Assembly (NCBI GenBank): GCA_022792535.1
Contig: JAAWBG010000017.1
Span: forward strand, 1-64,000
DNA: 64,000 bases
Reading direction: 5' to 3'
From: Lachnospiraceae bacterium
GTDB lineage: Bacteria > Bacillota > Clostridia > Lachnospirales > Lachnospiraceae
This document shows, in pieces, positions 46,600 through 51,843 of the stretch. The notes under the pieces were generated by a model. It saw only the letters and a program-made list of their open reading frames with translations, did no database searches and was not told where the DNA came from. Both the position numbers and the translations under genes were made by a program. The stretch's first letter is position 1, and each line of letters begins with the position of its first letter.

Positions 46600-47487
46600 A
46601 TGAAAGAAAAAAACAAATCAGAGATTAGAAAGAACACAGATCCCAAAAGCAAACTCCTCACCATCGGCCAATTTGCGGCTATGCATGGAATCAATAAGAA
46701 AACATTGATGTGGTATGACGAGATTGGCCTATTCCACCCTGCCTTCATCCACCCTGAAAATGGCTATCGCTATTACAGCTATCATCAAAGTCCCATATTA
46801 GAAACCATTCTCCTGCTGCGGGAACTGGACGTCTCTCTGGAAGTGATACAAAAATTCATGGAACATCGTTCTGCCAAAAAACTGAAATGTCTTCTGGAAG
46901 AGAAGATCGGGGATTTAGACCGCCATCTTGTCCATCTGCAGGCAGTCCGAAACACCTTATGCAGTCATCATCAGAATATGGTCACTTTGCTTACCATGGA
47001 TTTATCTAAAATCAGCATTGTGGCAAAAGAAGAACGCCGCCTGGTTACTGTGGAGATTGATCCGGATATTTCCTTTGAAAAAGAAGTGGAACTGATTACA
47101 GCTGAGACAGAAAAATACCAGTTGGGACGTCTCCATGATGCTTCCTATGGCTCCATGATCTCTGTCTCCAGCCTGCAAAAGGGCGACTTTCATAATTACT
47201 CCAAATTATTTATAGATCTCCCTGTCCACCGGCAGATCTATAAAACGAAAAATACTGCCCAAACCGGGTTGCACCTGCAGCCCGGCGGCAGTTATCTGAG
47301 AGCCTTCCACAAGGGAAACTGGGACAAGATCCCAAAGCGTTATCAGGAGGTCCTGCACTACGCCGCCCAGCATGGTCTGACCTTATCCGGTTATTCCTAT
47401 GAGATGGGCATCAATGAAAATGTCATTGACCGAGTGGAAGACTATATTGTGCAGATTGAAATTCCCATTGCTTCCTCTTACAAATGA
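46600..47487 (+). CDS. MerR-family transcriptional regulator with GyrI-like C-terminus
   Basis: LLTIGQFAAMHGINKKTLMWYDEIGLFHPAFIHPENGYRYYSYHQ. Confidence 0.9.
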   Translation: MKEKNKSEIRKNTDPKSKLLTIGQFAAMHGINKKTLMWYDEIGLFHPAFIHPENGYRYYSYHQSPILETILLLRELDVSLEVIQKFMEHRSAKKLKCLLEEKIGDLDRHLVHLQAVRNTLCSHHQNMVTLLTMDLSKISIVAKEERRLVTVEIDPDISFEKEVELITAETEKYQLGRLHDASYGSMISVSSLQKGDFHNYSKLFIDLPVHRQIYKTKNTAQTGLHLQPGGSYLRAFHKGNWDKIPKRYQEVLHYAAQHGLTLSGYSYEMGINENVIDRVEDYIVQIEIPIASSYK

Positions 47488-47933
47488 TCGTACTGTGCAT
47501 AGTACAATCCATCCATCGTAAAGCTGGATACTCCGGTATTATAATTGCCAGTTCCTCGGTAAGACATCCATCTTCCAATTCCTCCATTGGAAATCGCTGG
47601 ATCCAGCACATGAATCTGCTGTCCATTGGTATCGTCATATCCAGAAATCAATACTCCGTGACCTGCTCCATTCGTCAAGGTTGTATCTGCCAGCAGCAAT
47701 TGATTGTCATCAATGGCCTTCTTAATCTCTGAAAAGTCAATGGAAACATTGATCCAGCGAAATCCATTTAATCTTGCCACTGTATTGATATCTCCCGGCA
47801 GATCTGCATCATGTCTTCCTTCCCAAAATAACCTCTGTCCCCGATAATACAAATGAATCATATTACAAACTGCCATCCAACAGGCATTATTTCCAATCTG
47901 GCTGATTTCTTCTACTGCAAGTACATTTCTCAT
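47478..47933 (-). CDS. Papain-like cysteine peptidase (C39/AvrRpt2-like fold)
   Basis: Q-x5-CW (QIGNNACWMAVCNMIHLYY), GAGHGVLISGYDD (His), HVLDP (Asp). Confidence 0.75.
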   Translation of the reverse strand: MRNVLAVEEISQIGNNACWMAVCNMIHLYYRGQRLFWEGRHDADLPGDINTVARLNGFRWINVSIDFSEIKKAIDDNQLLLADTTLTNGAGHGVLISGYDDTNGQQIHVLDPAISNGGIGRWMSYRGTGNYNTGVSSFTMDGLYYAQYDHL

Positions 47934-47996
47934 CTGTTCCTCTCCCTTTTCTGCCTAAAATTCATTTCCATTCTCTTACGAAATCCTTCTTGAATC

Positions 47997-48251
47997 CTAC
48001 CATTCATTTCCATTCTCCCATGGAGGTTTTCTTGCAAATCCTACATGATAGGTCACTTTTTCCATCGTCAGCTCATGCTCTCCAATCCTATAACATCCCA
48101 CAGCGATATCTTTTCCAATAATGATCCCTTTGGGATAATCATTGAGGCAGCGATTCAGCAACGCAAGCTGTTCTTCCCTGGACTGATCTGATAAAGGCTG
48201 ATTAGGATTCACACTGCCTATGGCAACCAGTTTTACATACCGGATTTCGGA
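47997..48251 (-). CDS. Small hypothetical protein
   Basis: MSEIRYVKLVAIGSVNPNQPLSDQSREEQLALLNRCLNDYPKGIIIGKDIAVGCYRIGEHELTMEKVTYHVGFARK; same strand between peptidase and DUF2589 genes. Confidence 0.6.
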   Translation of the reverse strand, partial: SEIRYVKLVAIGSVNPNQPLSDQSREEQLALLNRCLNDYPKGIIIGKDIAVGCYRIGEHELTMEKVTYHVGFARKPPWENGNEW

Positions 48252-48337
48252 CATGGTATGTTTCCGTTTCTGCTCCATTCATATTCAATCCTTCCACTCC
48301 ATTCACACGGAATCCTTCTCTTTTATTCTGTCACTTG

Positions 48338-49570
48338 CTATTTACTTTTGGCTCCCTTTTCCTTCGCCCCATCTGCCTGAACTGGCGTTATCCCGCTGTC
48401 TGCCTGAGCCGGCGTTGCTGGCCTGCCGCTGCTTTGCTGGGGAAGAGTACCTGTATTCTGCGCCTGGTCTGCCACTCCTCCGGAGATAGCATTGTTATAT
48501 TCCACACGTTTTGACAGCAGATTTTCCTCTATGCGATCATAGGTTTTCTGTGCCTCTATCGCCTGATTCTGGACGACAGCTAATGCCTGATACTGGCTCT
48601 CAGAATCACCATATTCGGCACAGGTTCCGTCTTTACGGAAAGCTTTTAATCCAAAAAGCTCCGACACTCCTTTGCCCTCACCGCCGCTGTCTGCCGCCAG
48701 CCTGATTAAGTCTGCCATCTGATTGCAGAAATTCCACCAGGTCTGGTTTACCTCATCCATTGCCTGACTGAACTGATCCGCCTTATTCTCATCCTCCTCT
48801 TTGGAGCGGTCCAATCTCTGCAGCATCTGAGTCAGAGAAGCCTGATATGCATTCTGCTGACTGGCAGCTAAATTTTTCATTTTCTGAATGTTACTTTCTA
48901 ACCCATTTCGAGCCGCATCCCGCTGATTTTCCAGGACAAGAATATCCCCTCTTAATCGTTTCATATTTTCTGCTTTCAGACGGGCGCTGTCTGTGAGATT
49001 TTGTCCGTTTCCATCTTTCAATTCCGAGCTTATCAGCATAGGCGAGATACAGGAAGCCATCATATCTAACACCCTGGACAGTCCTTCTGGTGTTCCGTGA
49101 TTGGAGGCTCTGACATCTACATGATATTTTGCTGAATTATCAGAACTTCTGGTATTGGAACTGTGGGAACTGACACTTCCTGTAATATTGACTTTGATTG
49201 GGCCAAACTTTGCAGATCCAGACAAAGACGCACCCAGGTCTGTTGCCTTCTCTGACTTCTCACTCTGTTTTACCTCCATATCAAACAGCACGTTTACCTC
49301 ATCCACCTGAAGATTTGGAATGGGCACAATGGCAAGTACCGGCACCGCAACTTTCATTTCTTCTAAATTACTTGTTCCATCATCATTTGCACTCCGTCTC
49401 TGATATCCAAAAGACGCCGTGCGTACCCTTCCATTTGCGTCAAATCCAACGTCATTGATAAAATCTGCTGTGGAACGAGCCAGTAGAATACTGGCGTCTG
49501 CCGCCGCTGTAAGCGGACCTCCAATCAAACTTTTCATATCTAATCCTGCAAATTGCTCCGCTATTGACAT
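48338..49570 (-). CDS. DUF2589-like protein (paralog 1)
   Basis: MSIAEQFAGLDMKSLIGGPLTAAADASILLARSTADFINDVGF...VPVLAIVPIPNLQVDEVNVLFDMEVKQ...YHVDVRASNHGTPEGLSRVLDMMAS. Confidence 0.75.
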   Translation of the reverse strand: MSIAEQFAGLDMKSLIGGPLTAAADASILLARSTADFINDVGFDANGRVRTASFGYQRRSANDDGTSNLEEMKVAVPVLAIVPIPNLQVDEVNVLFDMEVKQSEKSEKATDLGASLSGSAKFGPIKVNITGSVSSHSSNTRSSDNSAKYHVDVRASNHGTPEGLSRVLDMMASCISPMLISSELKDGNGQNLTDSARLKAENMKRLRGDILVLENQRDAARNGLESNIQKMKNLAASQQNAYQASLTQMLQRLDRSKEEDENKADQFSQAMDEVNQTWWNFCNQMADLIRLAADSGGEGKGVSELFGLKAFRKDGTCAEYGDSESQYQALAVVQNQAIEAQKTYDRIEENLLSKRVEYNNAISGGVADQAQNTGTLPQQSSGRPATPAQADSGITPVQADGAKEKGAKSK

Positions 49571-49614
49571 AAGGTACCTCCTTTATTTTTCATCTGTATT
49601 TTCTTCTGCCTGTT

Positions 49615-49788
49615 TTATCGGAGAAAGGAAACATCTGCTTCTATCTTTTCTATCCACAGAATATTTCTATGTTCAAAATCACAATCTCCATATTCCATCC
49701 ACAGTCTAAGATTCATGCAGCTCCAAAGATAGTCAGCATATCTCTTTCCTGTCTTTTTTATCCTTTCCTCCTCTTCACACTTTTTCAT
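49615..49788 (-). CDS. Small hypothetical protein (57 aa)
   Basis: AAGGA RBS then ATGAAAAAGTGT; overlaps end of upstream DUF2589-like gene by 14 nt. Confidence 0.4.
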   Translation of the reverse strand: MKKCEEEERIKKTGKRYADYLWSCMNLRLWMEYGDCDFEHRNILWIEKIEADVSFLR

Positions 49789-50683
49789 TTCCGTTTTCCT
49801 TACTTTTTCTGTTTTCATCCAATCCATTTTTCAATTCCAGCATCATGATTTTTTCCTGAAGTTCCATCATTTGATTCATAATGTCAGACTGAGCTTTTAA
49901 ATAAATCTGTCTGTTAAAAGCATAGGTTTCTTCTGGATCTGCATCGTGACTGATCTGATAGAGTTTTTCTTGCTCTTTTAAACTTTCTGTTACTTTTTGA
50001 TATAATTGTCTCAGCTTTTTCACATTACGCTTATATTCAGAAATTTCCTGCCATGTGTTTTTCTGCTCCTGGGTACTCAGATTACCATCTATCGTAACAG
50101 GGGTGGTATCTAACTGTTTTGCCATCTGATTGGAGCTCAGCATGTCGGTAATACGCATCACTCCCTCTGTAGCTGGAATAGATTTAACCTCCATGTGGTA
50201 AGATACTCTCGGCAGAAAATTGCTGTCCCGCTGTTCTGGTGAACAAATCCTGCCATTAATCCGAACTTTTCCGTCTGGGTCGCTCTCCGCTCTCACCTCC
50301 GTTGCGAATGTAATCTCCGCTTTCTCCACCATAAGATTTGTGATGGGCACAACCGACAGCAAAGGAATCTGCACCTGCAGATTGTCTAAGCTGTATCCAT
50401 CTTCATTTTCCTGCCGAACTTGATCATAAGCAAGATTCATATTATCCAGATGAATCACTTCTTCCTGACCATTCTGCTTCACTGACCCCATGCTTTTGAC
50501 AAAATCTATCACATGGGCCCGAAGTTTTTGATTCGACTCTGCCAGCGCATGCAGCGGTGCGTATACCAGTTCGTCCAGCAATATAAAATTATTATCCATA
50601 ATCCCGGCGTCATTACTTTTCTTTGCTCCCCCGGAAGATTGATTTCTTCTGCCTCCGGAAGAAGCATTCTCTTTTCCCGCCAC
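49775..50683 (-). CDS. DUF2589-like protein (paralog 2)
   Basis: VQIPLLSVVPITNLMVEKAEITFATEVRAE...VSYHMEVKSIPATEGVMRITDMLSS aligns directly with the neighbouring paralog. Confidence 0.7.
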   Translation of the reverse strand: MAGKENASSGGRRNQSSGGAKKSNDAGIMDNNFILLDELVYAPLHALAESNQKLRAHVIDFVKSMGSVKQNGQEEVIHLDNMNLAYDQVRQENEDGYSLDNLQVQIPLLSVVPITNLMVEKAEITFATEVRAESDPDGKVRINGRICSPEQRDSNFLPRVSYHMEVKSIPATEGVMRITDMLSSNQMAKQLDTTPVTIDGNLSTQEQKNTWQEISEYKRNVKKLRQLYQKVTESLKEQEKLYQISHDADPEETYAFNRQIYLKAQSDIMNQMMELQEKIMMLELKNGLDENRKSKENGNEKV

Positions 50684-50850
50684 AAAACCATCTCCCTTAT
50701 TCTATTCTGCACAGGGTTTGTTCTGCACTTTACTTGCTTATTCCTTTTTATTTACTTATTATTTTACCGCTGCTTTTTTCACCTGAGAACTTACATTTGA
50801 GAAAATATTTCCACCTTTCAATAGATCTGTCAGTAAATGCCATAACTTTC

Positions 50851-51096
50851 TTAGAAAAGCTCATATTCCTTATAAACCATAATATCGCTGGGCTGACAAT
50901 GAAATATCTGACAGAGACGATTGATAGATTTGAGTGTAAAATTGTGATTATGCTTTAGTCTGCTGATCTCGGCAGGGTTGAGATTATATGTATATTCTAA
51001 ATCATAAATTGATATTTTCCGATCTTTCAGCATCATCCAAAATGGTTCAAAAGATATCATTTTCTTTCCCCTTCCCCTCTTAATATTTATTATCAT
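50851..51096 (-). CDS. Cro/XRE-type helix-turn-helix regulator
   Basis: WMMLKDRKISIYDLEYTYNLNPAEISRLKHNHNFTLKSINRLCQIFHCQPSDIMVYK. Confidence 0.8.
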   Translation of the reverse strand: MIINIKRGRGKKMISFEPFWMMLKDRKISIYDLEYTYNLNPAEISRLKHNHNFTLKSINRLCQIFHCQPSDIMVYKEYELF

Positions 51097-51143: not shown

Positions 51144-51383
51144 CTCTTCATACTTTTTACACTATGCAATGGCCTCCTTCGTATGTGGCAATACTATATT
51201 ATTTAATATTGATTTTCCACACAATGTTGTCTCCTGATTAAAAGCAATACCTTCATCAAAAACTATTTATCTTCTTTACCGCCATTTTTCCCTCAGTCAT
51301 AATGTCAGTCATCTCAAATAAACTATAGATATTTTGACGGTTTATACATCATCAAAGGCCACTTGACAAAACTTAACAGGGAA

Positions 51384-51482: not shown

Positions 51483-51578
51483 ATGGATACATACCAGATT
51501 TTAAGCCTGTTATTTTTGGGTGGTAACTTCCTGATTGCGCTGCTTGCCTATATTGATAGGAACAACAAGCGAAAATAA
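51483..51578 (+). CDS. Putative holin-like (type I) toxin, 31 aa
   Basis: MDTYQILSLLFLGGNFLIALLAYIDRNNKRK*, preceded by strong RBS GAGGGGAGGTG; single TM plus basic tail; not in the supplied ORF track. Confidence 0.75.
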   Translation: MDTYQILSLLFLGGNFLIALLAYIDRNNKRK

Positions 51579-51667: not shown

Positions 51668-51843
51668 GTCTATAATATAGCATAATCCCCGGATAAATTC
51701 AAGAATAAATCCCGTTAATGCAAACCGTTAGTGTAGGATTACAATACATGTGTTACAACTCAATATTTAAAAAGCAGAGACACTGCCTTTGTGTTATAAT
51801 TTAAGTCACCACAACCAAAACAAACCGAAAGGAGTTCTCTGCT

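Follow-up and report, generated by a model that had tools for sequence, protein, structure and literature searches.

A stretch of 64,000 nucleotides from a Lachnospiraceae bacterium (assembly GCA_022792535.1, contig JAAWBG010000017.1, positions 1–64,000 of the forward strand; hereafter the window) carries on its minus strand, at 47478–51096, an operon built around two proteins of the family DUF2589, here called SHORT and LONG, and a conserved 93-amino-acid protein, S93. The unit SHORT–small open reading frame (ORF)–LONG–S93 is conserved in Lachnospiraceae and other Clostridia, and the slots beside this constant core hold interchangeable effector-type proteins. We tentatively favor the explanation that this is one instance of a conserved module in which the core stores, carries, or releases an interchangeable effector; in the window that effector is probably a papain-like peptidase, and an upstream helix-turn-helix (HTH) regulator probably controls the operon. 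The module is undescribed in the open-access literature that we searched (subscription papers lay outside the search). If correct, this explanation would supply a function for DUF2589 and for the unnamed family S93, and would reveal a way in which signal-less lectins, cell-wall hydrolases, and toxin-like enzymes may be deployed by gut Clostridia, termite-gut Treponema, and some Vibrio.

The Conserved Unit

The genes run in line on the minus strand in the order HTH regulator, SHORT, small ORF, LONG, S93, and C39-like peptidase, at the positions given in a preliminary description of the sequence, which had also proposed an undescribed system here. That proposal is partly supported. When LONG (48338–49570; 410 amino acids) was used to scan species genomes, 367 relatives were returned. 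The best 80 of the 367 formed our comparison set, mostly Lachnospiraceae, with Treponema, Oscillospiraceae, Chitinispirillales, and Beduini also represented; the ranking was by similarity to the window LONG, which biases the set toward the operon type of the window. Genes of the related loci were called by a simple script and then clustered. LONG, SHORT (49775–50683), and S93 (47997–48278) were all called in at least 59 of the 80 loci, a lower bound given contig ends and missed small genes, and homologs of SHORT were present in 83 of the clustered loci. A frequent order in relatives is endolysin–SHORT–small ORF–LONG–S93–STAS–GNAT-like–SpoIIE.

DUF2589 is found, usually as two neighboring copies, in six of 299 genomes of the family, 13 of 392 genomes of the order, and two of 399 genomes sampled from the phylum. 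Searching the 392 order genomes with S93 only yielded nine. Eight of these belong to the 13 DUF2589-bearing genomes, and the ninth has S93 next to a remnant of LONG, so in this sample S93 is never found apart from LONG or its remnant. SHORT, LONG, and S93 are all present in Treponema, and they are consecutive in two Vibrio plasmids (L138 and L140; Vibrio tubiashii and Vibrio sp. 16) and in a deltaproteobacterial plasmid (L139). Because S93 accompanies LONG or its remnant in the order genomes and the triad is consecutive on plasmids as well, it is S93, not a peptidase, that forms the conserved unit together with the two DUF2589 proteins. Co-occurrence of DUF2589 with this particular C39-like peptidase, the association that the preliminary description had expected, is rare; that of the DUF2589 pair with S93 is the rule. 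Five loci (L015, L052, L053, L055, and L056) represent a second operon type, in which one DUF2589 protein is followed by two conserved families of about 230–280 and 180–200 amino acids that lack Pfam matches; L015 also has a ricin-type lectin.

Both larger proteins score above the PF11655 gathering cut-off of 23 bits (LONG, 138.6 bits, E = 2.8e-40; SHORT, 302 amino acids with a GTG start, 51.0 bits, E = 2.7e-13), and their families retrieve each other in phmmer searches (E = 1e-5 to 1e-17). By these scores they are true, diverged paralogs, as first proposed. AlphaFold2 predicts a C-terminal helical bundle in LONG, with helices 194–295 and 327–363 at high confidence. S93, which has no family match, is well conserved (40 aligned members, mean column identity 61%) and has a predicted beta-alpha-beta-beta structure (pLDDT 85); an Alba-like fold is not claimed, the matches being weak (E = 0.1–0.9; TM up to 0.46). 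The 93- and 70-amino-acid ORFs gave no significant Pfam match. The small ORF at 49615–49788 is genuine, matching (hmmsearch, E = 1e-8) a family profile built from 38 loci in which it sits between SHORT and LONG; it probably starts at 49788, giving 57 amino acids and overlapping the end of SHORT. The 5.39 million open-access papers searched name DUF2589 only for Archaeoglobus genes, in one mention that gives no function, and never name PF11655, in agreement with the earlier statement that the domain has no assigned function.

The Peptidase and the Variable Slot

The gene at 47478–47933 encodes a 151-amino-acid protein with a marginal match to PF13529 (Peptidase_C39_2; 26 bits against a cut-off of 24, E = 1.5e-5). 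Residues Q12, C18, H92, and D111 are invariant across the three homologs found, and profile match and conserved Cys/His/Asp with preceding Gln together identify it as a papain-like peptidase of C39_2 type; the catalytic triad read in the preliminary description, and the lack of a signal peptide, are upheld. The three homologs are those of the window and of two related loci, L057 and L058. Between the window and L058 the core proteins are 72–76% identical and the peptidases 32%, so the peptidase diverges much faster than the core. Elsewhere the equivalent slot is filled by unrelated enzymes. In L059, whose LONG is 74% identical, it holds an endonuclease/exonuclease/phosphatase-type protein; L060 has two small ORFs. 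The peptidase is therefore cargo and lies outside the core, since among the 80 related loci it was found in L057 and L058 alone, besides the window.

The preliminary description had tentatively cast the peptidase as an integral part of a processing, assembly, or conflict module. That it processes or assembles the two paralogs is suggested by its adjacency, its intact-looking active site, and its want of a signal peptide; its absence from 78 of 80 related loci that share the core makes such a role highly improbable. The conflict idea survives in another form, as variable effector-type cargo, without the peptidase as a fixed component.

Cargo in or next to the core of relatives includes Amidase_2 plus Phage_lysozyme, jacalin lectins, and ricin lectins; other operon members are further Amidase_2 proteins, a fascin-type trefoil, M23 and M15 peptidases, DNase-like Exo_endo_phos proteins, and DUF4135 proteins. 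In one Lachnospiraceae locus (L044:4403–7793, minus strand), genes for a TcdA/TcdB-type glycosyltransferase and a glucosaminidase lie between LONG and S93. A YopT/C58-type peptidase (L086, 12907–13548) is the sole such member of its cluster, which is a GNAT-like family; a YopT-like identity for the whole cluster was rejected. DUF4135, a domain of lanthipeptide synthetases, occurs inside both operon types (L112:4896–6497 and L052:8895–10478). Papain-like candidates in L085 (3442–4077), L066 (6166–6714), L067 (10656–11180), L114 (113–754), and L015 (1345–1908) were read from motifs by eye, without profile support. On the Vibrio plasmids, an annotated TcdA/TcdB-type glycosyltransferase and a peptidase-containing ABC exporter within 8 kb (L140) and an M91 metallopeptidase (L138) are neighbors, not operon members. 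For a recurrent cargo family (seven loci, alignment A8), a resemblance to adenylate-cyclase toxins was not supported, as it found no PDB match, and an ADP-ribosyltransferase-like motif noticed by eye in L099 (12270–12824), likewise without a PDB match, is a lead only.

The 76 genes lying at most two positions from the core include lectins, amidases, a glucosaminidase, and a glycosyltransferase among their matches, and 76 control genes at least six positions away in the same loci belong mainly to housekeeping families. Some of the near genes belong to unrelated families (MFS and a regulator, for example), so not every neighbor is cargo. By a simple hydropathy test, the core proteins and most of the cargo tested have no obvious signal peptide or membrane segment, and the same holds for every protein of the window operon.

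Signal-less cargo of this kind would also suit an intracellular defense or altruistic-death system, in which the core senses phage or stress and frees an enzyme (protease, DNase, or cell-wall hydrolase) that kills or arrests its own cell. Several cargo enzymes would indeed harm the producer, and the Cache-HAMP-SpoIIE phosphatase, STAS, and GNAT genes of relatives, together with their invertible-promoter architecture, suit triggered or bistable expression. PADLOC, however, returned no match for SHORT, LONG, S93, or the peptidase, and weak matches only for the HTH protein; lectins have no obvious intracellular role; and the more distant neighbors are mainly housekeeping genes among their top matches. 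We regard this alternative as unlikely.

Another possibility is that the core serves the envelope of the producing cell itself, positioning hydrolases and lectins there with a role in adhesion, sporulation, or division. No partner is commoner than the amidase/lysozyme genes (56 loci), lectins recur, and in roughly half of the loci the core is followed downstream by a STAS protein and a Cache-HAMP-SpoIIE phosphatase with a HATPase domain. Proteins without export signals are hard to reconcile with such a role, as are cargo proteins such as the TcdA/TcdB-type glycosyltransferase, the C58 peptidase, and the DNase-like type, and a patchy distribution (6/299 family genomes), and we consider it quite unlikely.

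A Candidate Promoter Switch in Relatives

In many relatives, the interval that separates the operon from a tyrosine recombinase gene holds inverted repeats with the core CATAATACGATATTATG, about 130–260 bp apart. The segment that they bound has TTGACA inside it and TATTAT in the repeat arm, 17 bp apart, the pattern of a sigma-70 promoter. In 1.26 Mb there are 24 copies of this signature in the 6 kb upstream of LONG, with one copy elsewhere on that strand and two on the opposite strand; the 23 repeat pairs all lie upstream of LONG. The signature is present in 12 of the 17 loci that have a recombinase and enough upstream sequence, and in seven further loci with no recognized recombinase. Each of four tested genomes with a linked recombinase has one close homolog of it, at the DUF2589 locus, with an exact signature there; one further exact match (G486 contig 12) has neither a partner repeat nor DUF2589. 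From this arrangement we infer putative phase variation in the relatives. In a termite-gut Treponema, a degenerate inverted-repeat pair stands directly before the operon (L128:7373–7618), on account of which the switch may extend beyond Clostridia.

Nearby tyrosine recombinases, the occurrence of copies on plasmids, and amidases that match phage endolysin families could also mark what is left of a lysis cassette from a phage or mobile element, carrying cargo genes. In these loci, though, the recombinase adjoins an inverted-repeat-bounded promoter, as in an inversion switch. PHROGs has no match for LONG, SHORT, or S93, and tblastn with LONG found nothing in 50,697 phage genomes. Among 2.9 million viral contigs there was one relative; on that viral contig LONG and S93 occur together, the stretch examined stopping just past both. 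On these searches we rejected a phage origin, and the cassette explanation as a whole, largely contradicted already, is very unlikely.

A phase switch was looked for in the window and not found: a search of its genome found only distant recombinase homologs and no promoter signature. The window and its nearest relative, L057, have an HTH gene upstream instead. In the window this gene (50851–51096, minus strand) encodes a Cro/C1-type regulator of 81 amino acids (Pfam HTH_26, E = 3.8e-15); the L057 gene at the equivalent place is 89% identical, and comparison with it suggests that the start is probably 51060 rather than 51096. An alternative recombinase half-site, ATAATATAGTATTA (up to two mismatches), has only two matches in the window, at 51189–51202 and 51672–51685, in inverted orientation. 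They are degenerate, lie upstream of the HTH gene with no recombinase nearby, and are probably chance or a relic. Between them, at 51483–51578 on the plus strand, lies a 31-amino-acid hydrophobic ORF with a charged tail (MDTYQILSLLFLGGNFLIALLAYIDRNNKRK), by eye like the small holin-like type I toxins; Rfam gave no match near it.

Effector Deployment as a Working Model

Under the explanation that we favor, the core proteins (the two DUF2589 paralogs, the small protein, and S93) would form one cytosolic assembly that binds cargo, and the cargo, having left the cell through lysis or some other route, would target surfaces or other cells. Expression in relatives is probably confined to a subpopulation by a recombinase-flipped promoter, and the cytosolic amidase/lysozyme of their operon could open the cell. 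A broader form of the proposal, to which we give guarded credence, is that DUF2589 pairs with S93 constitute an unrecognized cytosolic effector-deployment apparatus in several phyla, with swappable proteases, cell-wall hydrolases, lectins, and toxin-like enzymes, and that in many gut Clostridia it is expressed in a subpopulation via a dedicated DNA-inversion promoter.

Several observations weigh against these proposals. All switch promoters found point away from the operon in every assembly, and inversion was sought between close relatives and not seen, all segments sharing one orientation; promoters pointing away do fit an off state. The DUF2589 domain of LONG is modeled at low confidence, and sequence and fold searches of the PDB found no significant homolog of LONG or S93, leaving no structure or paper in the sources searched that accounts for either family. 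Among the cargo genes, many lack a family match, and some were assigned from motifs read by eye. Endolysin, recombinase, and promoter switch are all absent from the window, so inferences from relatives may not transfer to it. Release is the weakest step of the mechanism: the endolysin of relatives would allow lysis, whereas the window has none.

Comparison with Known Systems

Phage endolysins and lysis-dependent protein release provide one comparison. The amidase and lysozyme of relatives are similar and have no signal peptide, but at the DUF2589 loci no holin and no phage genes were recognized, and the window lacks an endolysin. The STAS protein and Cache-HAMP-SpoIIE phosphatase of relatives resemble SpoIIE/STAS partner-switching regulators, differing in their linkage to DUF2589 and a GNAT-like protein; they are absent from the window.

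A cluster of DUF2589-related genes in Archaeoglobus fulgidus, AF0414–AF0417, is up-regulated on lactate with no function assigned (PMC3949148); it parallels the gene clusters described here, the published account being a transcriptome remark only. Invertons, in which inverted repeats surround a promoter (PMC11892184, PMC8748976), share that architecture with the relatives, which also have a tyrosine recombinase gene alongside. The candidate switch differs in that it would regulate a DUF2589 operon, in having its -10 box in the repeat arm, and in being absent from the window; no promoter switch of a DUF2589 operon is described in the literature searched. An inverted-repeat-bounded promoter predicts that expressing cells are rare in the relatives, which would explain why the system has been missed.

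Polymorphic toxin systems are described as a constant part joined to strikingly diverse toxin domains (PMC3482391). In those systems a long carrier protein has the toxin domain at its C-terminal end; at the loci described here, most cargo is encoded by a gene of its own, and DUF2589/S93 make up the constant part. No immunity gene was recognized at the loci, where many small ORFs have no family match. The likeness lies in a constant part accompanied by diverse effector-type partners: such interchangeable genes are observed at the DUF2589 loci, and the core would take the trafficking role.
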